Assembly: GCA_015039465.1 (NCBI GenBank)
Contig: MU130302.1
Coordinates: 258,573-287,954 of the forward strand
DNA from: Phlegmacium glaucopus
Lineage: Eukaryota; Basidiomycota; Agaricomycetes; Agaricales; Cortinariaceae
Direction of reading: 5' to 3'
DNA: 29,382 nt
Part shown: piece by piece, positions 1 to 29,382 of the stretch
How positions within the stretch are numbered: position 1 is the first letter of the stretch
How the letters are laid out: each line of letters opens with the position of its first letter
Notes under the pieces: generated by a model
Databases searched by the model: none
Told to the model about the DNA's origin: nothing
What the model saw: only the letters and a program-made list of their open reading frames with translations
Translations under genes and position numbers: made by a program

Positions 1-263
1 ATAATTATCACTAAGTCAGGCCATGAACAGACCACGAACAGACGGCCTGAACATCCGATAAAGGCGACCGACAGGCAACCTGAAAAGGTAACCTGTACAG
101 GCGGCCTTAATAACAGGCCGGCCTGTTGATGGCCTTAATCGTTGCCTTTCACTGACCTGTTAAAGGGAATAAATATGGTACTTTTCAATTTAATTTAATT
201 TTTTCACAGGTCTTCATCAGGCCGCCTTCAGGCCGGCCTGTTACACCCCCTCACATTTCTGGA
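1..263. mobile_element. Far end of the DNA transposon inserted in the integrase (reversed block)
   Basis: In base-complement this stretch is rich in CCGGAC-type motifs and ends in a terminus reading GTCCGGCCGGACAATGTGGG, then GGAGTGTAAAG. It mirrors the normal-orientation terminus at about 2,960-3,014, so the two form a terminal inverted repeat of about 40 bp. The next bases in base-complement, CAGACCTTG at 264-272, repeat the 9 bp found on the other side of the insertion at 3,015-3,023. A perfect 16-bp palindrome, AACAGGCCGGCCTGTT, lies at 112-127, and a 12-bp version at 229-240; both are subterminal copies of the same motif. No transposase is visible between the ends, so the element may be non-autonomous. 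A Mutator-like assignment from the 9-bp duplication is inference. Confidence 0.65.
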
Positions 264-653
264 GTCTGGAACCTAGTTATGTAGGCGTAGATGACGTTAA
301 TAGTCGTTCTGTTGACCTCAAGTGAAGAGGGTAATCGCCTTAAGAGGATGTTGTTATGAGGCTCACGGTGATGGCCACATAGAGGTAAGAAACGGTTGTT
401 TCCGATGCTAGGCCGATAGTGATAGGTAGGCCTCATGCTGGAACAGAGGAGGGTACGAGTGTTCATGCAATGCCTGGAATTGCTTGAGGTGTTTCTTGAG
501 GTTTTTCGATAGGAGTGAAGGGTCCTTGTTATGGTTACAAGACGCCTATTCGCAGCCTAAGGAGGAGGTCTGAAGTTCCAACCTCTAGCTCGGAAACAGT
601 CTCGTGTTAAGAAGGCATGCTGGTCTGGAAGTTTCTTTGAGAGGCTCTTCATC
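264..653. pseudogene. Ty3/gypsy integrase C-terminal part, readable only in base-complement
   Basis: Reading the complement left to right gives an uninterrupted frame from 264 to a TAG at 651-653 (about 129 codons). It contains classic chromoviral integrase landmarks: QTLDQYIRIYCNYQQDNW, the PLAEF.YNN segment, ATTGVSPFFANKGY, and the post-core DFKVGDR and FFRTTRPSKKLSEK segments. This is the piece missing from the integrase at 3,015-3,771, which breaks off at the same QTL codons. The frame then stops abruptly after the LSEK motif, where a repeated GTATTC-type stretch (about 665-705) suggests a second insertion or deletion. The family identity is from recognised motifs. The reversed state is seen directly. 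No coding capacity exists here in either normal strand. Confidence 0.88.
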
Positions 654-854
654 CCTGGCAGTTTCAACTGGCATAAGCATAAGCATAAGCATAAACTGGC
701 GTAATATATTACATTTTAAGTTTCAGTTGACACTGGTAAAACACTGGACGTATTAGACGTCGTAACGACAGCTTGAGTTATGGCGAGCTGCGCTGTGGAT
801 GCCGCTTTGGGAAGGAGATTAAGTGTGAGCAAAAGTATGATGTGAATAAAGTTA

Positions 855-1483
855 TACCGGTTTCGTTAGTTCCGATGCTTTAGCTTTGAGGGTCTGTAAG
901 GAACCCGTCTTCTACTAATATTTGAGCAAAGTCGTAAAGATTGCCTCAACCTCTTTTGTCTTTTAATGTTCCAAGATAAACCTTTTTTCCTGAGAAGCCT
1001 CCACTCATCGTCGTAAAAATTTTACTAAGCACCGATTTTTGGAAGATCTTGTGTTCACCTCTCAGGGCTCAACGACAAAAATTCGCTTAACCCAGATAGT
1101 AACACGGCCCTGACAAGGTTGAGTTAGGACCACGCTAATCACTCGCCGAATTTCCGGTTAATCTGTCCATTCACGATTTATTGTATAATAAGGTAACGAT
1201 TAAGTGATAATCCGAATGCTTCTGCATAGCGTTCGTGCGTCGAGCTGAAGCAGTTTGACCACTGCCGCAACTACCGCCTTTACACCTCGTAAAACTAATA
1301 ATATAAGGCCGACTCCCTGGGTTGCTTCCTTGTGGAAACCAACGCCAATTATAGACCGCATGACAAAAACAATGTATAACTAATTAAACTCAAGATTAGT
1401 AAAAAAAATAAATCTCCTGTAACTCTTTCTAAAATTTAAGAAAGGAGCAGAAGTGTTCTATAAAAGTCGAGCAGGATTACAGC
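855..1483. CDS. Transposon-type SANT/trihelix-like gene, partial, readable only in base-complement
   Basis: In base-complement an ATG at 855 opens a gene with exons at about 855-1001, 1049-1167, 1213-1358 and 1415 to at least 1483. The introns are GTGAGT...TAG, GTAAGT...TAG and GTACTG...TAG, 45-56 nt long, and phases match across all three. The product (MAKAIKATKSKLPDIPWAED at the start, FGKKDSSENTSGES and RKHAARLRQTGDGVDG inside, FKFFPRLHKIFSARPNVV near the end) resembles a repetitive basidiomycete protein carried by DNA transposons. That family has a Myb/SANT-like DNA-binding look, but this is recalled from family knowledge and not proven. The C-terminus is not resolved. Upstream sequence is AT-rich and promoter-like only in the decoded polarity. 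Confidence 0.7.
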
Positions 1484-1849
1484 AAGCTTAAAAATATACC
1501 AATAGCAATACAGTTAACATTATTCATTAATAGGTAGTGGCAATACCGTGTTGCCACCACAATCTTGCTTTTTGTTCAGCTCGCGAGTTGGTCACGTGAC
1601 CACCTGTGACCCACAACAACAAGCGTCCATCACTGTCACCACTGTTACACAACCACAACAAACAACCCGTAACGACGACGACTACCACCAGGACAAAGCC
1701 AGACGACGGACAACAGCGACAACAACGATAATGAACGACAACAACGATGGATGACGACGACGGGTGACGACGACATGACGACGAAGAGAGCAACAAGCAA
1801 CAAGCAATGAACACCAGCAGCAACAACAACAACAACAACAACAATGATG
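1484..1849. repeat. CAA/GAC trinucleotide-rich low-complexity stretch
   Basis: Irregular CAA, GAC and ACC triplets dominate, ending in a pure (CAA)n tract near 1,821-1,843. Open frames exist on both strands only because the triplet composition avoids stops; their translations are runs of N, T, L or V, so I do not call a gene. CpG is far commoner than GpC here, which is odd for repeat DNA and fits the stretch still lying inside the reversed block. Confidence 0.7.
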
Positions 1850-2180
1850 CCCCCTCCTACTGGGGGGGTATTTGGTTTGTTTTTTTTATTATAACTTCAA
1901 CTCTACTAATTACTACCACCAGGTCACCCCCTACCTCGACACACCGGTCTCACCACCCCCCCCTTTCACCAGGGGGGGTTTTTTTTAACGGTTTTTTATT
2001 AGATTTTGAACCACGAGGAGAAACAACATACGACGAACAACCGACCAAACAAACAAATGACAACAACAACAAATGAGAAACGACCGAACGAATGACGACG
2101 ATGACACCCCCCCTCACTGGGGGGGTATTTTTGTTTTATTTCTAGGCTACACAAACGGCGAACCCCCCTCACCGGGGGGT
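1850..2180. repeat. Series of four C-run/G-run hairpins, each beside a T-run
   Basis: Four short inverted repeats occur in 330 bp: C5/G7 at 1850-1868, C8/G7 at 1956-1978, a perfect 7-bp stem with loop TCACT at 2107-2125, and a 6-bp C/G stem with loop TCACC at 2163-2179. Each is followed by a T-rich tail. A fifth hairpin (2648-2668) has the same loop polarity. They look like bacterial intrinsic terminators, but this is eukaryotic DNA and the stretch is probably written reversed, which would put the T-run before the stem. More likely they are a repeated structural motif of an inverted-repeat transposon or satellite. Confidence 0.6.
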
Positions 2181-2221
2181 TTTTTCCTTTTGTTCTTACT
2201 GACTACAACTGCGGTGATCCC

Positions 2222-2598
2222 GCCGTCACACGTTTCGACACCAACCCACCCTTCTCGACACCCACCCACTCGTTTCGACCACCACCCACCCTTATCAACC
2301 ACCACCCGGCCTTATCGACCCACCCATTCCAGCCACCACCCACCCTTTTCGACACCCACGCACCCGTTTTGACAACCACGCACCCGTTTTGACAACCATG
2401 CACCCGTTTTGACAACCACGCACCTGTTTTGACAACCACGCACCTGTTTTGACAACCACGCACCTGTTTTGACAACCACCCATCCTTTTCGACCCGCACC
2501 CACCCTTTTCGACCACCACGCACCCTTTTCGACCACCACGACGCACCCTTTTCGGCCACCAGCCACCCATCTCGGCCACCACACACCCTTTTCGATGA
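2222..2598. repeat. 20-bp minisatellite, about 18 degenerate units
   Basis: Units of the type ACGCACCYGTTTTGACAACC repeat head to tail, cleanest between about 2,355 and 2,480 and degenerate on both sides (TTTTCGACCACC variants). Because 3 x 20 = 60, the minus strand is open in three frames with a 20-residue period (KTGAWLSK...). These frames reflect the repeat, not selection for protein. Orientation is uncertain because the stretch probably lies in the reversed block. Confidence 0.85.
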
Positions 2599-2647
2599 CT
2601 CTCACCCCTTATATATATACGTATTATTGTAATTATTAGTTACTACA

Positions 2648-2668
2648 ACCCTCCTTCACAAGGAGGGT
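2648..2668. repeat. Perfect 9-bp hairpin ACCCTCCTT / AAGGAGGGT
   Basis: Arms at 2648-2656 and 2660-2668 are perfectly complementary with a CAC loop. The loop sequence TCAC/CAC and its polarity match the hairpins at 1,956-2,179, suggesting the whole set belongs to one repeat and one polarity block. AT-rich DNA without genes follows to about 2,835. Confidence 0.6.
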
Positions 2669-2835
2669 AATAAATTAATTTTAATCTTAATTAATATGTT
2701 ACAAAAGTTACAAAAAATCTAAGTTAGTAAGGAATTGACTGAAGTCAATAAAAATCAATAAATTGAATATAGATGTACATGTAACATCAGACAAAATAAC
2801 AATATAACTTGTTTAAAATTTACGTTAAGTCTTGT

Positions 2836-3014
2836 CAAATTCCGATAAAATTCTGCTGGAGTCCGGCAGACTCTGACCGGACATACAGTCTGGTCATTTT
2901 TCTACTTCAAAATTACTTGACCGGACTATGACCGGACTATGACCGGAATTTTACCGGAGTCCAGTCAAGTCTGGCGGAGTCCGGCCGGACAATGTGGGGG
3001 ACTGTAAAATACAC
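2836..3014. mobile_element. Near terminus of the DNA transposon that splits the integrase
   Basis: Normal-polarity sequence packed with CCGGAC/GTCCGG motifs (for example two tandem GACCGGACTAT units at about 2,920-2,940). It ends in GGACAATGTGGGGGACTGTA then AAATACAC next to integrase sequence. The element interrupts the integrase directly after QTL codons; CAAGGTCTG at 3,015-3,023 (CAGACCTTG on the coding strand) is one copy of the 9-bp duplication. The partner end is in the reversed block at 1-263. Dense subterminal repeats and long inverted ends are typical of non-autonomous DNA transposons. Superfamily is not proven. Confidence 0.7.
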
Positions 3015-3771
3015 CAAGGTCTGGTCGACGTGTTCCGTTTGTCCGTCACCTTCCAGGTGGTATCCGGAGGTGAAGTGCAGCTTCATGTCGAGGGCTTTTC
3101 CAAGGGATCTGAAGAAGTGAGATACAAACTCGGAACTGCAATCGGAAGTTACATGGGACGGAACACCGTGCTTGGAAAACACGTGGATGACAAATAGTTC
3201 AGCAAGTTGAGCGGAAGTGATGGTGTTGTATGTGGGGATAAATATGGATTGTTTCGTGAACCGATCTACTACGACTAAGACCGCAGTGAAACCTTCGGAG
3301 TCCGGAAGGTGTTCAATGAAATCCATGGAGATGGAGTCCCAGGGACGGGACGGAACAGGGAGTTGTCAGAGTAAACCATATGGTTTATGACATTTGGCTT
3401 TGGACCGAGAACAGGTTGTGCAAGTCCTACAATAATCAGTGACAAAAACACGGATACTGGGCCAAGTGTACTCCCGACGGATAACCGCAAGAGTCCTATT
3501 GACACCGAAATGTCTGGAGACAGGATGGTCATGATAATAACGGAAGGACACGGAGACGAAGATCGCCAGAATCTGGAACATAGATCTGTTGATCAATCCG
3601 GACGAATCCGGAAGAGTCCTTAGACCATCTAGCATACTTCGGATTGTCTAGATCCGATAAGTAGGACTGTGCAAGGGGGTCCGTAGAAAGAGCGGAAAGG
3701 ATCCCCTTGTTGAGCTCTTCGACATCCATGGTAAAGATACCACGGAGTACGGTAGGAAGTAATGAAGTAGC
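3015..3771 (-). pseudogene. pol: integrase N-terminal and core part, frameshifted and truncated
   Basis: The pol frame continues after the 3772 TGA as MDVEELNKGILSALSTDPL (from 3729), then shifts frame at about 3,560-3,580 into RYYHDHPVSRHFGVNRT, the zinc-binding His-His region, with YCRTCTTCSRSK supplying the cysteines. An in-frame TGA at 3363-3365 separates GLL from QLPVPSRPWDSISMDFIE. The catalytic core follows: LVVVDRFTKQSIFIP and FSKHGVPSHVTSDCSSEFVS (first and second acidic positions), then GDGQTEHVDQTL, where the glutamate region ends and the DNA transposon begins. The C-terminal part of this integrase is recovered only at 264-653 in the reversed block. Confidence 0.88.
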
Positions 3772-5916
3772 TCAGAGTGAAGCGGAAAGTTGTTTGGAAG
3801 AAAAGATAGGTTTAAAATTGTGTGGATTGACTTCACCGTAATCTTTCCCTCCCTCCTTGAGATAGAGGTCAGGACGACGAGTCAGCATGTCCGGCTTTGT
3901 TCCGAGACGGCCTGGGCGAAATCTGATAACCATGTTGAATGCGGAAAGGTACTCGGACCACCAGGCTTGATGGCGGGGTAAGATTTTGGTGGTTGCAAAG
4001 TACTCTAGATTTTTATGGTCAGTAACCACATCAATTGGGAAACTAGCACCTTCAAGGTAGTGCTGCCAAGCTTTGAAAGCTTCGAAAATGGCAAGGAGTT
4101 CCTTATTGTGAACGTCGTAATTCAATTCTGCACTGGAAAAGGTATGAGAACGATACGCGATGGGATGGACTTCTCCATCGGAATCACGGATGGAAAGGAT
4201 AGCTGCTAAAGCGTAGTCGGATGCGTCAGTTTCCACAATGATAGGACAGTTAGACTTCCAGTGTGTTAACACCGGAGCAGAAATAAAAGCCTCCTTGAGA
4301 GTCTTAAAAGCAAGGCGACAACTGTCATCAAAAACCCACGGAATATTTTTCCAGGTAAGACAAGTCAACGGAACCACAATATCAGAGTAGTTGTGGATGA
4401 AACGCCTGTGAAAATTAGCAAAACCGAGGAAGGATTGGACATCTTTGACTTTCCGAGGTTCTGGCCAGTCTTGAATGACTTGGACTTTCACCGGATCCAT
4501 AGAAAGGCCATCAGGACTGATCATGTGACCCAGGTACTCGACGCAATCGGAGTGGAAAACACATATCTTACCATTGGCGAAGAGATTATTATCTCGGAGC
4601 CGTTGGAGGACTTCGGAGACATGTTTGATGTGATCTTTTTTGTTGATGGAGAAAATGAGGATGTCGTCCAGATAGATGATTACGAACACATCTAAAAGGT
4701 CAGCAAAAATGGTGTTAAGGAAGCGTTGAAAACCGCCAGGGGCATTGGTAAGTCCAAACGGCATGACAAGCCATTCAAAGGAGCCATAGCGGGTATGAAA
4801 AGCAGTCTTCCATTCATCTCCGGCAGCAATCCGGACAAGATGGTAGGCATGCTTTAAATTGATTTTAGTGAATATTCGGGATTTGCGTGGAGCATCAAGT
4901 AAGTCGGAAACAAGGGGTAAGGGATACTTGTCTTTCCAAGTGATGGCATTGAGTTTTCGGAAGTCGACGCAAAGCCGGAGTGACCCGTCCTTCTTCTTGA
5001 TAAACAGGACAGGTGCTCCGAAAGGAGACTTAGAGGGGCGGATGAAACCCATGTTTAGGTGCTCGTCGATGAATTCTTGGAGTGTTCCTAACTCGGATTC
5101 GGAAAGGGGATAAATCAGACCCAAAGGGGGCTTAGCGGACTCATCGATTTCGATTTTTAGGTCATACTCTCGATGGTCCGCTAGAGTGTTAGCCTTGCCT
5201 TTGGAAAAGACGTCCGAAAATTCGTGATATATTTCCGGAACACCGTCCAGGTCGGAATCGGAAGGTGTAGCGGAGGCTGAGGCGGAACAGCCAGCAGCCT
5301 CAACTGGATCGTGAACGGAAATGGAATAGCATTGGGCTCCTTCAGAACGGATGGACCTCATGAAAGCTGCAGCAGACACTAAGGAAATTTTAGGAGCGGT
5401 CAATGGTTTGGGAACAAAAGGGATATCAGGAGGTGGTTCCAGAATAGTCTCGCAAGGTTTTTCAACCTTTGAACTCGCAGAAACCGTATCGGACATTGTA
5501 ATGTCAGATACCGGAATGGGTGCCTTGGCGGAAACGGAAGCGGGAACTGGAAGGATAACTATACGGTCTCGGAAAGTTACACTGCTATCGACCCAGTCAA
5601 TCAATGGATTATGTTGGGTGAGCCAGTCAAGCCCGAGTACAGCAGGAAAATCGGAATCCAGTTTGGTTAGTAAGAATTGGATTTTGTGGACGGTACCACA
5701 TGAGAACTGAACAGAAACAATGGTAGCATGGGTGATCATGCCCGGAGAAGAACCATCAATGAGACGGAGAATCATAGGAGTAATAGGAAAAATAGGAAAA
5801 TCATTGGACTTCGCGTAATGCTCATCCATGAAACAGTGAGTGGAACCACTGTCAATGAAAGCAGAAAAATCAACATTCAGAAATTGAACGCAAAGAAGAG
5901 AAACAAAGACTGCTCA
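3772..5916 (-). pseudogene. pol: pol: aspartic protease, reverse transcriptase, RNase H
   Basis: After the TGA at 5914-5916 the frame is open to a TGA at 3772-3774. The protease active site is IDSGSTHCF (Asp codon 5851-5853), which precedes the first in-frame ATG at 5829. Next come a long linker, the RT entry motif LGLIYPLSESEL, the fingers segment VLFIKKKDGSLRLCVDFRKL, the catalytic IIYLDDILIFS motif, and the RNase H segment VETDASDYALAAIL with LLAIFEAFKAWQHYLEGA. The region ends in the linker before integrase. The order and motifs are those of Ty3/gypsy pol. The terminal TGA lies within the polyprotein: the same frame continues as ATSLLPTVLRGIFTMDVEEL into integrase. Confidence 0.92.
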
Positions 5917-6008
5917 GGTTTTTGGAGATATTATTGCATTTAGAACTGCAAGAAGCTCAGCACAGGGCTTCTCGCAATTCACCATCTGTGCTGAGTCCAG
6001 TGGATTGC

Positions 6009-7211
6009 TTAGTCTTTTTTTTTTTCTGAACCGGAGTCCTTTGGCTTAGCTGGAGTGGACTTGGAAACGGAATCAGAAACGGTAGAGGCTCGGCCTTTAG
6101 CGGAGCTTGCCTTGGCAAGGTTACAGTCAGGAACGCGATGTCCCGGCTTGCCACAGAAAAGACAAAGTTTATTATCCATCCGGCGTTGCCTTTCTTGCTG
6201 GGTAAGTCTACCCTGCAAGTCCAGCTTGCCTTCTAGATTAGGTTTAGGAGGAGTGGAAGATGAAACCTTACCGGAGTCTACAGGCTTAGCGGATTTTTGA
6301 TCCGAAGGCCGAGACTGTTTACCGGAACTGGAAGAAGGGTTGGAAGAAGAGGGTACAGAGGAGGATGAAGAAGGGGTAGGACCCTTCAGAGGGTTTTGGC
6401 GTTGCTGCGGAGCGGGTTCCCGAGAACATTCTTGCATACGTTCCCAGTAGCAAGCATCGGCATTTTGAGCTTTTTGACGCATCGCAGTTAAAGACCGGGG
6501 CTTGCCATCACCTTTGCTGATTGCATCCTTGATTCGGGAAGGTAAACCTTCGTAAAACCTATACCTCAGAGCAGGCTCGCCCCAAGTACAGTGGACTACC
6601 AAGGAGTTAAACCGGACTAAGTAATCGGAGATACATTGGCCGTCCTTCATTCGGAGATTGGTGAGTTCGTGTTCTATGTCGGCAGACTCATTGTAAGGAC
6701 CAAAATTGGACTGAAGTTCGCTGACGAAGAGGTCCCAATCTTCAAGCCAAGACGGAGGCTCGTCGGTGAGACTGGAAATTCCAGGTTCAAACCATTCCTG
6801 AGCAACATCCCGGAGATAGGACAAAGCAAATGTCACTCACTTGGAGTCATCTCGGAATGTGTCGGAAGAGCTCCGGAAATAGAGCTTGCACTGGAAAAGA
6901 AAAGCTTTCAGTTTCTTAGGATCCTTACCCGTGAAGGGTTTGGGCTCTCTAAGTCTGCCAGCCGAATCGGACTTGGCTGATGATTTCCCAAGGGAATTTA
7001 AAGTGGAAACAAGTTCATTGATATGAATAGATGGAGACTCAACTTCATCTGTAGCCATCCGAGGTTCGTTGATAAGACTAGCCTCTTCGACTACATCTGG
7101 AATGGGAGTCTGCCTGGTAGGAGTATTTTCGTGGGACATGTTTTGTTGTATCGGTAATTGAGTTTTGGAAGTTTTGGAACGAGTTAGCATAGGAGTGGGT
7201 GAGCAGTTCAA
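6009..7211 (-). pseudogene. gag: gag (capsid/nucleocapsid) with an internal TGA
   Basis: The frame starts with ATG at 7211 and runs to TAA at 6009, interrupted once by an in-frame TGA at 6837-6839. The first part carries the REPKPFTGKDPKKLKAFLFQ motif of gypsy gag (the retrotransposon_gag N-terminal region). After the TGA the frame goes on as VTFALSYLRDVAQEWFEP, then a Ser/Pro-rich linker and a CCHC zinc knuckle CLFCGKPGHRVPDC near the C-terminus. Gag would assemble particles and bind element RNA. The product would be about 400 residues if the stop were read through. The stop sits at a conserved junction and is most simply a point mutation. The end lies in an A-run discussed separately. Confidence 0.88.
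6015..6025 (-). other. A11 run at the gag-pol junction, possible -1 frameshift site
   Basis: On the minus strand eleven A residues precede the last two gag codons (GAC TAA). Slipping back one base here enters the frame that leads through DSAQMVNCEK and on to the protease, so the run is placed where a programmed -1 frameshift would join gag to pol. A later in-frame TGA at 5914-5916 blocks this in the present copy. No downstream pseudoknot was examined. A simple length polymorphism of the A-run could also explain the frame change. Confidence 0.45.
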
Positions 7212-7238
7212 ATATACTGTTAAGTTTAAAACAAGGAA

Positions 7239-7793
7239 GTCACGTCGGAGTTACTCCGGAACGGACGGAACGGAACCGGAACAGTAAGCGGAAAGGACGT
7301 TGGCCTCAGCGTGTGTGCTGTGCCGCCCAGCTCCTAAGGTGTCCTGATTTCGGAACGGAAGAAGTAATAAGACGGAAGACCTCAGTGACTTAGAGGACGA
7401 ACAAGAGGAGGAAACAAAGTTGATATTCAAACTGAGGGAAAACATACAAGTTTCGAGTACTTAAATAAATAAAGGAATAGCAACCAAAATATAAAAGATA
7501 AATATAAGTGCTGTGTTCTGCTCCCGGGAAGGTCCTGCATTCTTGGGTGAATAATCCATGGCAGGTATGCTGACTGATGGTGGGAAGGATGATGACAAAG
7601 AATAGTGGTAGTGGCAAAGAAGTGGTAACGGGTTTGGAGTATAGACGGAGGAACCGGAATGACATGGAAAAGTCTCAGAGTTGAACATAGGAAGAGTAGT
7701 TCAGGATATAAGGGAAGGCACTGTACGGAGTACAGACTACCGGAAACAGCTCCGACGGAGCCGGACCGGAGTAACATATAACGGAATGTAACA
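7239..7793 (-). repeat. 5' LTR of the gypsy element
   Basis: On the minus strand it starts TGTTACATTCC (7793) and ends near CTCCGACGTGAC (7239), about 555 bp. The limits come from comparison with the related LTR copies at 9,569 (same TGTTACATTCC start) and at about 13,020 (ends ACTCCGACGTTACA). A CAAGAATGCAGGACCTTC-type core and a conserved GGGCGGCACAGCACA segment occur in all copies. The exact 3' end is uncertain by a few bases. The primer-binding site was not identified. Confidence 0.75.
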
Positions 7794-7910
7794 CACGAGC
7801 ACAGCAACCATCGACTTCTCACAGGGTACTACTGACTCATCTCTACATGGGACAAACTTCGCTTGACTCACTGCCATCTGAGCATGCTCACTCCTGTGGT
7901 GCAACTTGGG

Positions 7911-8307: not shown

Positions 8308-9340
8308 TCACTCCTGGAAGCCACCAATTCTGCAGGATGCAGAATTGATGCAAAATGTAATGCAGGATCATAAAAATCTGCATTTAGCAGAATAATTAAT
8401 TCTCAAATAATTCTGCCAAGATGCAAAAAAACAATTAAAATCCAGCCAGAATTAGAAATTCTGCCTCAATTCTACTTTTGGTAAAATTTTTACTTTTGCA
8501 TGAATTCTGCAACAATTAGAATCCAATTAGAATGTAAGATTCTACCTTAATTTCACAAGATGCAGAATTTATCAAGAATGATAAATTCTCAATGGATTTA
8601 ACAAACTGCAAAATGTTGTCAGAATTCATTATTCTGCATTTTGCAGAATCAATTATGTAGTGGGGGGCAAAATGCAGAATGATGAATTCTGCAAGAATGA
8701 TGAATTCTGCAAGAATGATGAATTCTGCAAGAATGATGAATTCTGCAAGAATGATGAATTCTGCAAGAATGATGAATTCTGCAAGAATGATGAATTCTGC
8801 AAGAATGATGAATTCTGCAAGAATGATGAATTCTGCAAGAATGATGAATTCTGCAAGAATGATGAATTCTGCAAGAATGATGAATTCTGCAAGAATGATG
8901 AATTCTGCAAGAATGATGAATTCTGCAAGAATGATGAATTCTGCAAGAATGATGAATTCTGCAAGAATGATGAATTCTGCAAGAATGATGAATTCTGCAA
9001 GAATGATGAATTCTGCAAGAATTCTGCAACAATCATTTTTCAGTTTGCAAAATCCAGTGAGAATTTATCATTCTTGATAAATTCTGCATCTTGTGAAATT
9101 AAGGTAGAATCTTACATTCTAATTGGATTCTAATTGTTGCAGAATTCATGCAAAAGTAAAAATTTTACCAAAAGTAGAATTGAGGCAGAATTCCTAATTC
9201 TGGCTGGATTTTAATTGTTTTTTGCATCTCGGCAGAATTATTTGAGAATTAATTATTCTGCTAAATGCAGATTTTTATGATCCTGCATGACATTTTGCAT
9301 CAATTCTGCATCCTGCAGAATTGGTGGCTTCCAGGAGTGA
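8308..9340. mobile_element. Foldback / non-autonomous DNA transposon with about 320-bp inverted arms
   Basis: The left arm (8308 to about 8626) and right arm (about 9023-9340) are inverted copies with few mismatches, starting TCACTCCTGGAAGCCACC at both ends. CTAC flanks both sides (8304-8307 and 9341-9344), a possible 4-bp target duplication; a TA duplication (8305-8306, 9342-9343) is equally possible. The arms are saturated with TTCTGCA/TGCAGAA motifs, probably subterminal protein-binding repeats. The centre is an 18-bp minisatellite made of the same motif. There is no transposase, so it would need one in trans. Confidence 0.88.
8678..9019. repeat. 18-bp minisatellite, 19 near-identical units
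   Basis: The unit AATGATGAATTCTGCAAG is repeated 19 times without visible divergence (342 bp). It lies in the centre of the foldback element and contains its arm motif AATTCTGCA. Because 18 is divisible by 3 and the unit lacks stops in four frames, long ORFs appear on both strands (NDEFCK, MNSAR, CRIHHS and FLQNSS repeats). Coincident openness in several frames and both strands argues against a protein. Uniformity implies recent expansion or gene conversion. Confidence 0.97.
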
Positions 9341-16963: not shown

Positions 16964-18140
16964 TCAAATAGAACCTCCCAACTGACCTTCCTCCTCTTCA
17001 CTTCGCCATTTCTTGCGCAAATCTTGCGGGAGCCTGAATGGATAAGTTTCTTCCAATCTGTATACCTTCAAGCAATCGCTTCCGTTCTCACAGACAAGGG
17101 CAAATCTGTTCAAGTTTCCTGCCACTTCTTTCATAACCCCCTTAAGACATCTCAATACCTGCACCAATCCTCCTATTCGTTCCTGGCTCCGCTTTTCCCA
17201 GTCTCCTAGTTTTTGCTCATAGTCGGTGACTTCAATGCGTTCAAAGACACCATTTTTGTGAAAACCTTGACACAGGATTGGTGTCATTGAGAGCCACATC
17301 TGGGACATATCTTTTTCAGTGATCCCACAATTCACCGCACCCCTTGCTGCCCTTGTCTTGATTTCAACAACCTCTTCAGCCTTCGATAAAGCACCTTTCA
17401 ATATCAGCTTATGTCCGTTGAGGGTCATCACGACTTCACCCTTTCCAGAGTCTTCCGCTGGGGCTTCAAGACATGCATCCACCTCAAATCTCACCATCAA
17501 CCGAAGGCCCCCAAGTGTATAGCCGACTGCTCGTTTGTGCACCAAGCTCCCTCTCGAGCATTCCGGGATCTTGGTGAACTTTCTCTCGAATTCCTTTCCA
17601 TAACCCGCATTGAACCGCCGCGACTCCCAGTCTATCCATCGTGAAAATATAACACTGTTTCCCACTATCTCTACATCAAACCGAAATTCTTCTTGCTCCT
17701 GGTGACTGGCAAAGTTCATGAGCAGTCGCAAGTTCCGCCTGTCTGTGATGATGTCAAAGGAGTTGAAGTCCGTTTCAGGGGCGGTAATAGAGATGGCACG
17801 GAACAGAGGTTCCATGGGACATGAAGGGAAGGCTTCGCAGATAGCGGGCTGCAAAGCATCACGCTTCAGGCGAACAGGCAGTGATTGGGGTGACCAGACG
17901 GCAGGAGAGCCTACGAGGATGTTTAGCTGGACATACATGCTTGTGAGTCGCTGAATACCCACCGGGTACAACGATGGTTTCTCTTTGGCCCTCGGTTGGA
18001 AGTAGATCGTAGGAAGTTAGAGCAATGGGATCCAACTGCGATAAGGAGGATTGAATTGCGGTTTGGATTGAGTGGCGCTCTAGGAAAGCGACGGGTTGCG
18101 ATGGTGAGAAGCAGCCTTCATACAGGTTTCGCCATGCCAT
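16964..18140 (-). CDS. RAI1/DXO-like decapping-nuclease family protein
   Basis: Two exons, 17963-18140 and 16964-17910, with a 52-nt intron (GTGGGT...GTAG), give 374 residues. The family is common in Agaricomycetes and often automatically named geranylgeranyl pyrophosphate synthetase, but no DDxxD prenyltransferase motif is present. Instead I see RAI1/DXO features: GYGKEFERKF, then GGLRLMVRFEVDA with E-x-D at residues 202-204, VVEIKTRA with E-x-K at 242-244 (about 40 apart, as in RAI1), and MWLSMTPILCQGFHKNG. RAI1/DXO enzymes remove or hydrolyse abnormal RNA 5' caps with acidic, metal-binding residues; this function is inferred. Start ATG at 18140 gives the family-type N-terminus with SYDLLPTEG before the intron. 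Confidence 0.8.
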
Positions 18141-22114: not shown

Positions 22115-23424
22115 GGTAAATACGCTTCAGACAATGCGAGGGAAGTCGATCCTCCTTCACGTTAGGGGGATAGGAGATTGGTGCTAGTCAGACTTTGAGT
22201 ATGGGGTCCGGGGTTGTCGATATAAAGAACTGTGGGTTAAATAAGAGGGAAAGGTAGCGATCGTTTGGTCCAAAAAATGCGTATCAGTGATGCTAAAAGT
22301 TAATAATGTGACGAACGGTTAGAGATCCGCTCTAGATCGTTACAGACTCACGCAGACCATGAGGTATCATATGCTGCAGCTTCCTGGTCGATCAATATGT
22401 TCACTTTTCTGTGTTGTTCCAAGAACTAGATGACTTGCAGTCACAGAATGCAATTACGACAAATGGAGCCCGAAGATAGTTGGGTTGTTTCCTTTGAGGC
22501 TCAAAAGGAGACGCTGCTGCATGGCAAGGGTAACCTGAAGAATAGGTATTTTCACATATATTGTCTGTCAGACTTGCATTAAACACGAACTGGCCGGAAA
22601 TGATGTGGATGAAAAACAATAGAGTACGCACCCCTTGAAACATCAGGTACTTTAATTGACCGTTTGGGAGTTGTCTATAGCCATTTGGAGTTGTTCCAGT
22701 TCGTAGATTCCAGCTCGTGGGGGAAACGAGACACAAGAAATATGGTCCAAAAAAGGTTTGTGGCGTTTGTGGTACATATTGGTAAGTACACTCTAAGTCC
22801 CAACGTGAGTATCGGAAGATAGGGAGGACGGACCGGGAATGAATTAGGACATATATGACCAAAGAAGGTGCATGTTGGGCGCTTCGCCCATGATTTTGGC
22901 GCTTCGATGGGAGAATCCGTGGGCCTCAGTGCGTGTCGTTTCGTCATCACATTCACTGATGACTCACTTTTGGCATCTATTATAGACTAACTTTGTCTGT
23001 TATCCCTGTTCTATATGAATTGGACTTGAGGCAGCCTCGTGTTTATTGTTCGACGTGTCTGCAGTGGCGTCTGAAACTCACCAATACCTATTGGTTCCTT
23101 TATCTTGGGCATCTCTGGTCAAAGAGAGATGGCAGGATCCTCAGAGCCAAACGGAGGGGTGAATTACCGACTTCAACAATATAGTAACTCCTTGTTGAGG
23201 CTTCCGCCGAGCAGAATCTCAATCAATCTCAGGCTATATTAAGTACCGTTCGAAAATAAATCGGCATTAAGTGAGACGATATGTATCATGTGACGAGTTC
23301 ACGCACCCGTGACCAGTCGCGTTCTTGTGAGATCAAATTTACCACGGTTCAAGGTCAAGGCTCAGCGCACAGCGCCCAACACCGACGACGACAACGAAGA
23401 CCAGTTTATCAACTATTCACTACT
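22115..23424. promoter_or_regulatory. Divergent intergenic region between kinase and kinesin genes
   Basis: The kinase gene (start 22114, minus) and the kinesin gene (start 23425, plus) diverge from this 1.3-kb region, which must hold both promoters. A minus-strand open frame at 22401-22862 (153 codons) has no motif that I recognise and an odd composition; I do not call it. In-frame sequence upstream of the kinesin ATG (from 23281) is Arg/Gln-rich and looks like leader sequence. No TATA box was assigned. Confidence 0.55.
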
Positions 23425-26400
23425 ATGAACCGCAATAGCACCGTACCAAGTACCCCAAGGGTTCCTCGTCCACCGCCATTTACCCCAAAGCGTCCCTTGT
23501 CAATCCAATCAACATCATCATCAACCAACGATCTCACCTTTGCTGCACGTCTTTCTCGTACTAACAGCAACAGTAGTACCAGTAGCAGCCTTAGCACGCC
23601 TCAAACTCTGCTCTCAACAACACACAAGAAATATAAAGCACCACTTTCAGTTGAATCTCGTTCAAAAACTACCTATGGCAAGATCATTAAACCTGTGTTA
23701 CCCGCTGTTCCTGGTACTCCAACGAAGAAAGATGGGACACAAAGTCGTCCGAGAACACCTAATACACCACGGAAGGGAGCGGAAAGCCCATCGTTGATGC
23801 CTGCTGCGGGTGAGATGGACGTGAGCAACGTTGATCCCGAACAGGTTTTGGTGGATTATCAAACCGTTGAACCTGGAGACGTCTCTGGCGAAATAGACGA
23901 AGCATGGCTAAGAGCTGCCGAGCTCGATCATGGCAAACAAGATAAAGTCATGGTGTCCATTCGGTCAGCCCTCCCATCTCGTTTCATTTCACCACGCACT
24001 TCAACTAACTTCTATTAATGTAGAGTCCGGCCGACAGATACAACTTCGGCGTGGATCCCCTCTCCATCCGACAAATCTCTGAAATTGGACCCCACATACG
24101 CCAAAAACACCTCAACTCCTTCATCCAGTACATCGTTCAATTTCGATGCTGTCCTCACAGGAACGCCTAACAAACCCATATACACCACTGTCGCCCGTTC
24201 TCATGTACATGCCGCCATGGAAGGCTATAACGCCGTCATTTTTGCATACGGTCAAACGGCCTCTGGAAAAACATATACTCTCAGCGGTGACTCCGCAGGC
24301 GAAGAACCCGGTATCATTCCTCGAGCGATGAGGGACGTCTTTGCCTTTATTCGCAAGACAGAAGAGAGAGAATATCTTTTACGGTGTTCCTATCTGGAAA
24401 TTTATAACGAGAGCATTATTGATCTTTTGGCTCCTCCCGGGTTGGCTGCCGCCAACCCTGTACAAATCCAAGGTGGAGGTGGAGGCGACGTCATTTTGAC
24501 ACCGTTGAGGGAGGAAGTTGTTACCAGCCTTAAAGGAGTGAAAGAAGTCTTGAAGAGAGGTGAAGGGAATAGAAGGACAGCATGCACGGATTGGAACGAT
24601 CGGAGTAGTCGAAGTCACAGTGTTTTTAGGCTGGTGGTTGAAAGTCGGGAGAGAGGAAGTGCGACAATACGGGATGAGGATGAGAATGTGCCAAGTCCCA
24701 GTCCGCCAACGATGAATGGGAGGCAAACACCCGGCCTAAATGGGAGACAAACTCCAGGATTAAATGGCAGGCAAACGCCTGGACTTGGCGGACCAAGATT
24801 GCAGGCAAGAGGAGGCAGAAGTGTGCAGACTTCCGTATTGGTATATACTTATATTCGCGCTTGAGCATTCAAGGATATTTTCTCAGCTTTCGTTTTTAGA
24901 GTCTCATTGATCTAGCTGGTTCTGAAAAGGCTACTTCTGACAAGGAAAGAACAAGGGAAGGAAAGTACATTAACACCAGGTTCGTCTTCCCATCTACGTC
25001 TGCGCTCCCTTCTCGATTATTAATTGGATTTATAGTCTACTCACATTGGGTACCGTCATCGGTACTCTAGCCGACAATGCATCCAAACATAAAAGGTTCA
25101 TCCATTTTAAAATGCTTTTACTTTATAATTTATAATGTTGGCACAGTGACCACGTTCCATACCGAAACTCCAAGCTAACCCGGATGTTACAACCTTCTCT
25201 CTCCGGTAACGCACGTATAAGCGTTATATGCACTATCAACCCTGATGTTAGCGCTATTGGTGAAAGTACGAGTACCTTGTTATTTGCCAAGAGGATTAAG
25301 AACGTTCAGGTAGGTCCTGTTGATGTTTGGTGGACCCTCTGCTCATTTGAATTTTTATTTTAGTTACATGCCCAAAAGAAAGAAATTGTCGATACAGATG
25401 CTTTAATCGAGAGATATAGAAAAGAAATTGAAGATTTGAAAGCTAGATTAGCAGAGCGCGGGGCGGACGCGCCTGTACGGAATAGAAGACTTTCTGCTCG
25501 CGAGGTACCAGCTCTCTTAATTCTCAACGGGAACAGATTTTTGTTTATATCTTTTATTTCCGTTAGCAAATCGACGAATCTAAAGCAATGCGAGACTTGA
25601 ATAATAGGATCCAACAGTTGACCAAACTCATTCTGACCAGCGCGACTGTGGATGAGGGTAAAGGCGATGAATCACGTCCTAGTAGTCCTGTCAAGATCGA
25701 TTTCGACATGTCACCTTATCAAGTAAGTCTCTTCCATTTTTTCCCTCTGCCAGAATCACTAACATACCCCTTTCCTAGCTCCAACAAGAACTCCTCGCAG
25801 CACGTCTCCAACTTGAATCTCAGGCAACTCAAATCCTCTCTCTCGAAGCAGCTCTCGTCGCTCGTCCTCCCTTACCTGCCAGTGCTTCAGATAACGAGAA
25901 AGATAAATTCATCTCAGAACAAGCTAAAACGATCAGAGAGTTGGAAATCGTCATTGGAGGTTATGAAGATAATTTGGGTGAACCGTTGAGAGCTGTGAGA
26001 GAGGATGTGGAGAAGGAATGGATTGGGAAGGTCGAAGAAGAAATCAAGAAGAGGAAGGAGAGTGAACAATTCGCTGCGGAGGTTGTTAAACAGTTGGAGA
26101 AGGAGAAACAGGTAAGAGCGGCCTTTTTTTTTCTGGTTTGGTTCAACTGCTGATGATGTGGCTGGTTGTGTAGGCAAGACTGAAATTGGAAGAAGAAAGA
26201 CGAGCTTTAGCTGCTTTTGTCACTAAATTTGATTCTTTAGGACTAGGGTTAACATTACCTTCTTCCAAACTCCAACCACCGAAACCTACACCAGGCGGAG
26301 CGTTGACAGCGTACGCGGAACGAAGACAGTCAAGATCGTTCTCGTCTACGTTCTCGGGTGGTCTTCTGAAGAGTGCCACCATCTCGCAAGACACGTCACC

Positions 26401-28794: not shown

Positions 28795-29382
28795 CTACAA
28801 ACGGGGACCACCAGAATAACTACTCCGATGTTGACTCCTCTTTCTCGAACGTACCTACGGACGGTGGTTACTACACTTACTTCCACGAGAACCTAGTAAA
28901 TCCGTAGAATACGCCATGGTTGGAGTCGAGTGTAACGAGTTAGTGTTACGTAATCGTTACAAAAAGGCGTTGTTGTGAGTTCGTAAATACCGACGTTTTA
29001 AGTGACTCCGTCACCTGATGGTTGTAGACGTGTTTGAACCTTCCCTCTTTCCTCTACTCTTTGTTTCTGCTTTCCTTTAACAACTTGTGGCACTATCCGC
29101 AGTCCGTCTCTTCTGTCGTGCTTTCCTCTTCGCACTTGTTTTCCGTTTCCTCTGTCGTCTAGCCTAACGTCGTTGTCCGTAGTAAGATCTGTTTCACTTC
29201 CGAAATCGTGAGTTCCCATGTGAAGATTTCCTAGTCAACTTTCATAAGTTCTTACGACCTCGAGGTTTAAACTACTGACGGTTCGACGGTTGGTTCCAAC
29301 GACTGTAGACCTTCCGTAATAGACTACGTTAACTAAACATACTTCTACCATTTACCGATGAACTTAGTCTATTTCTCCTTCT
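28795..29382. other. Right block written reversed without complement; carries a long coding frame
   Basis: Neither normal strand has a credible frame. The base-complement, read left to right, is open from the block start to the window end (about 195 codons). It encodes FAPGGLIDEATTEEKELAWM, then PATNDVNEGALGSFR, ALAMFFRNNTQAFMAAKF, a Lys/Arg/Glu-rich helical stretch, and KVADIWKALSDAIDLYEDGK. The PATND.NEGALG..R signature belongs to a repetitive basidiomycete protein carried by DNA transposons. Its enzymatic role is unknown to me. The last codons join in phase to the normal tail at 28746-28794, which implies that the block was reversed in place and ends at, or within a codon or so of, the window edge. 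The start may lie 3-6 bases to the left. Confidence 0.93.

Follow-up and report, generated by a model that had tools for sequence, protein, structure and literature searches.

The window analysed here, a stretch of 29,382 nucleotides from Phlegmacium glaucopus, corresponds to positions 258573-287954 of C106, one of the 259 contigs of a 60.5-Mb genome (window positions are marked W below). The window is bounded exactly on both sides by runs of N (C106:249582-258572, 8,991 bases, and C106:287955-290201, 2,247 bases), which we presume to be scaffold gaps. Its left part contains a gypsy gag-pol region with minus-strand open frames at 2937-3365, 3772-5913, 6009-6836, and 6837-7250, into whose integrase an element of approximately 1.79 kb with terminal inverted repeats (TIRs) of approximately 40 bases is inserted, together with the C-terminal half of a gypsy integrase and a four-exon gene. 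Coordinates of these features, together with those of the reversed blocks described below, are compiled in Table 1. Elsewhere in the window, an 18-base tandem repeat AGAATGATGAATTCTGCA occurs at 8676-9022 in 19.3 copies with 100% matches, and both strands are open there for approximately 180 codons. The gene at 16967-18140 is 99% identical to a P. glaucopus protein over the last 318 residues, and elsewhere in the genome its sole match has 30% identity. Long plus-strand frames at 23275-24864 resemble a kinesin motor by eye.

Table 1. Coordinates of the features of the window and of reversed blocks in the genome
Feature	Coordinates	Strand	Remarks
Left block	window 1-1486 = C106:258573-260058	.	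reversed in place, uncomplemented; directly right of the 8,991-base N run
Ty3-type gypsy integrase, C-terminal half	window 258-653	.	readable on the base-complement in the given order only
Start of four-exon gene	window 855-1486	.	base-complement only; ATG at 855
Remainder of TIR element	window 1487-3013	+	normal order; the other ~263 bases are reversed W 1-263
Gypsy gag-pol	window 3014-7250	-	normal order; identified by eye: gag, RT region, and integrase N-terminal half
Right block	window 28798-29382 = C106:287370-287954	.	reversed in place, uncomplemented; directly left of the 2,247-base N run
C106 block	C106:215088-215496		reversed; start presumed; 215174-215496 matched C212
C106 block	C106:231368-232826		reversed relative to window 7586-6123; normal order from 232828 relative to window 7588
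C106 block	C106:about 248321-249581		reversed, as judged from matches of the complement at 27 places
Blocks touching N elsewhere	C226 (within 2 bases), C127, C189, C45, C164		reversed
Blocks without N in the fetched stretch	C62, C144, C237, C82, C212		reversed; C144 and C237 extend past the fetched stretch and may reach N farther out

For the left end, each base was complemented with the given order retained, and the resulting string was compared with the genome from which the window was taken. On this complement, a frame of 131 codons is open from base 258 without any reversal and gives a phmmer match to 7q5b_A, a solved chain of Ty3 Gag-Pol (E=2.4e-8), and the complement of 264-652 has genomic copies at 93-96% identity. 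The preliminary description, made from the letters alone, had named a gypsy integrase on the complement, and this assignment holds. In a Pfam search, the C-terminal piece (complement of W 258-653) gave no match and no rve core domain. The piece corresponds to the C-terminal half of the integrase of Ty3/gypsy LTR retrotransposons, from which it differs in being legible on the complement only, due to the reversed order of its letters. The upstream half of the integrase is found in normal order at W 2937-3365 (named by eye), with a homologue within the reversed stretch C212:2599-4511.

In case of the four-exon gene, GT-AG introns placed by hand on the complement at 1002-1048, 1168-1212, and 1346-1414 (a single splice choice) yield an open frame of 157 codons, as expected from the three-intron gene proposed earlier. 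Copies of this gene occur in normal order on C212 (two copies), C15, C220, and C245 at 93-99% identity, and the 157-codon spliced peptide had no match in Pfam. The two gene segments on C212 are located at 1017-1852 and 5077-5918.

The TIR element is likewise divided between the two letter orders. Its terminal repeats lie at W 2968-3008 and, on the complement, at W 217-258, and share 93% identity. When the block is read reversed, a 10-base direct repeat CCAAGGTCTG is situated on both sides of the element within the gypsy integrase. This repeat is likely the 10-base target duplication of the approximately 1.79-kb element. The interior of the element contains hairpins of G/C runs and a 20-base tandem array.

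The left block, whose complement thus carries the C-terminal integrase half, one end of the TIR element, and the four-exon gene, can be aligned base by base with a normal copy. String-reversed C212:1017-2502 is 99.2% identical to window 1-1486, with 12 substitutions, all of them transitions, and without indels, and C212:2503-2598 read forwards equals window 1487-1582 in 96 of 96 bases. In three normal copies (C191, C224, and C212), window base 1 is joined directly to base 1487, with agreement over 30 bases on either side of the junction except for one mismatch in C212. Therefore, the left block is reversed where it stands. A reversal without complement had been claimed for this end of the window, and it is borne out by normal copies that match only after complementing in the given order.

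The search of the genome gave the same picture. With the complement of 1-1483, 40 scored matches out of 271 candidates were obtained, the best at 99% across all 1483 bases on C212, which is far beyond chance; chance had been excluded in the preliminary description as well. With 1-1483 as written, 17 matches including the sequence itself were found; seven of the 16 non-self matches were examined (C62, C144, C164, C226, C237, C82, and C127), and all seven are reversed pieces themselves. As to its extent, the block had been suggested to reach 2,670-2,830. This proved to be wrong: as written, 1487-2900 finds normal copies (74 matches with itself counted, one of 100% over 1,221 bases), and the three copies mentioned above join base 1 to base 1487. 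The stretch from 1487 to approximately 2,830 has the normal letter order and contains many tandem repeats, which probably account for the CpG signal at approximately 1,540-2,300 on which the longer extent was partly based.

C212 shows the opposite arrangement, with bases 2599-4511 reversed relative to window 1582 to 3473, and the complement of this stretch carries the integrase core domain rve (Pfam, E=2.6e-12). C212:1-13041 is a 13-kb contig without N, and 2599-4511 is its own reversed block. An additional internal reversed block of the window at 7216-7833, hinted at by composition, was unsupported: the adjacent gag frame is normal, and C106:232828-233033 matches window 7588-7793 in the given order.

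The preliminary description assumed a single block, which is incorrect, as a second one occupies the right end of the window. There, the final 588 bases have negative values of a strand-symmetric 5-mer polarity score. The complement of the right block, a repeated gene, has 194 open codons compared to 78 as written and matches a Phlegmacium glaucopus protein at 99%. It also matches six genomic copies at 98-99% over full or near-full length. The best copy, C62:328669-329253, is 99.5% identical to the complement and meets the flank in normal order at the identical base (junction W28797/W29382). With the right block as written, the search lists further given-order matches on C203, C224, C8, C219, C10, C191, C200, C107, C105, and C198. 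Six copies are listed with normal order in both flanks; in these, the interval past the 585 bases, computed by hand from the match positions, comprises 2138, 2213, 2272, 2274, 2309, and 2701 bases. The N run of 2,247 bases which remains to the right of the window is near these lengths, and thus the patch seems to have replaced gap sequence.

In total, 15 reversed blocks on 11 contigs were found, of which 10 extend to an N run and 5 are without N in the fetched stretch. Blocks outside C106 were located via reversed matches and therefore form a biased sample. The stretch C106:210001-390000 (180 kb) was scanned for the ends of N runs; it contains three N runs, and five of their six ends are reversed. 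The remaining end at 290202 is normal. A complement search had hinted at this end as the sixth reversed one, which was rejected, as ten copies match it in the given order at 96-99%. The complement of C106:290202-290600, a stretch in normal order, has matches of 99% at C62:325921-326319, C44:134319-134717, and C219:18192-18590; judged by these alignments, the three places are probably additional reversed blocks. For the block ending at 215496, a 69% match to C106:340223-340474 suggests that C106, and not C212, would be the reversed partner.

The composition of the N-run ends was evaluated with the 5-mer score, whose model was trained on inner sequence, which favours contrast. For the six C106 ends (500 bases each) the mean score is -5.5 compared to +14.2 for 263 inner windows, the individual values being -2.8, 5.6, -17.4, -2.2, -22.9, and 6.7. 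None of 100,000 randomly drawn sets of six was as low as the mean of the ends, a set which includes the left end noticed first and is scored with a model trained on inner sequence. Only 6 of the 10 reversed ends are clear by composition, with scores lower than those of all 400 control points. Ends 215496, C127:268588, C226, and C164 are called reversed based on homology, their composition being unclear, and the ends C127:267466 and C189:246287 on the far sides of gaps are normal-looking by composition alone.

Inner boundaries of the blocks mostly differ from copy to copy. The C45 block starts 105 bases deeper than that of the window, the C203 reversed match spans 336 bases and the C189 block 764, and the boundaries of C127, C226, C164, and C106:232826 differ as well. 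An exception is given by one boundary common to the window, C189, and C203. In-place junctions were demonstrated for a subset of the blocks, namely both ends of the window and C106:232826/232828. The block of C62 comprises 3,274 bases and that of C144 at least about 3,045, both in gypsy repeats. For 12 of the 15 blocks the open frames were examined, the C144 stretch including approximately 340 normal bases, and the longest frame is located on the complement in all of them except for the low-complexity block of C212 (185 compared to 178). In Pfam, two of four complement frames gave a domain (Retrotrans_gag, E=1e-13, and the rve domain of C212 mentioned above) and none of four as-written frames did so.

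The string reversal in the window is real. The reversed blocks most likely represent an error in the assembly data and not biology. With a probability of roughly 93%, the ends of the window are patches that an automatic gap-filling step spliced backwards and uncomplemented into scaffold gaps. In-place geometry, the link to N runs, and boundaries private to single copies are all properties of an assembly file. Patches would have been made gap by gap from reads entering on one side or on both. Where bridging was possible, the gap would have been closed, giving a block without N; elsewhere it would only have been shortened, giving a block beside N. A strand-handling step would have reversed the string and omitted the complement. 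Reversed, uncomplemented deposition is a known kind of database error. Such public records contain the same type of string error as the blocks of the window, but there whole short records are affected, whereas here many internal stretches tied to N runs are concerned.

Other origins of the reversal appear far less probable. An ordinary inversion, or an old inversion of a transposon which merely looks odd, has practically no probability left: inversions are common in repeats, but they predict matches on the opposite strand, whereas the blocks match only after complementing in the given order, and this reading is thereby refuted. Intact coding sequence inside the reversed blocks and the presence of similar blocks in several copies of one transposon would be in agreement with a real biological process that copies or joins DNA in reversed polarity without complementing it. 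The N-run link, boundaries particular to single copies, and the geometry of reversal in place speak against such a process, to our knowledge no polymerase or ligase mechanism for it exists, and we consider it exceedingly improbable. The preliminary description had offered a data-handling artefact or a planted alteration as the cause. The former is supported. The latter, which may be extended to an alteration made while the window or the genome copy was prepared and absent from the public record, agrees with the outcome of a public protein search, in which the one as-written frame used (197 aa, C144 locus) found no match. Since 15 blocks are spread over 11 contigs, most have boundaries of their own, and 10 extend to an N run, this cause is very unlikely, and the ten contigs listed with further given-order matches to the right block as written argue against it as well.

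As to the step at fault, PBJelly is the lead suspect, unproven. The assembly passages of PMC7550596 describe ALLPATHS-LG assembly and, for hybrids, PBJelly patching based on PacBio reads; the species named there include Cortinarius glaucopus, which may or may not be one of the hybrids. For the genomes of PMC8480192, which also used Cortinarius glaucopus, the corresponding passages name Velvet, AllPathsLG, Falcon, and finisherSC. According to the parts of English et al. (2012; PMC3504050) that deal with gap treatment, PBJelly closes gaps or extends flanks so that residual N stays. This resembles the anatomy of the blocks, in which one or both flanks would have been extended into a gap and N remains. 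Reversed patches are not mentioned in these parts, and the 94% stated for patch accuracy is below that of the left block; thus, corrected reads or another filler are possible. A literature search for a description of such a patch-reversal fault yielded none that we recognised among the papers listed, and passages of PMC6191289 were not relevant.

The fault could also lie in the primary assembler or scaffolder, e.g., in the patching of ALLPATHS-LG itself, and not in later long-read patching. Absence of indels in the 1,486 bases of the left block fits short-read data, and some boundaries coincide in near-identical copies (the window, C189, and C203). Blocks as long as those of C62 and C144 in gypsy repeats would, however, be hard to obtain from short reads, and flank extension with residual N is the behaviour reported for PBJelly in the gap-treatment parts of PMC3504050, so that we regard an assembler fault as unlikely, yet worth keeping in mind beside the preferred reading of reversed gap fills.

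Reversed patches would evade BLAST, gene finders, and repeat maskers. They would also introduce false breaks, conceal young copies of transposons, and yield spurious "unique" sequence. Judging from the species named in PMC7550596, this genome is probably among those in the published comparison of transposon content, and the observed blocks are largely repeats. A polarity scan, i.e., a strand-symmetric k-mer score combined with complement BLAST beside gaps, detects many blocks and is applicable to patched assemblies. It is tempting to speculate, though on balance doubtful, that a single error of strand handling in some widely used long-read patching step has led to thousands of reversed, uncomplemented patches across a whole series of public hybrid fungal assemblies, in which the youngest transposons would systematically be concealed or truncated where gaps used to be. 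The reversed blocks are of no interest as biology; their value is that of a warning on a public genome and possibly on a pipeline.
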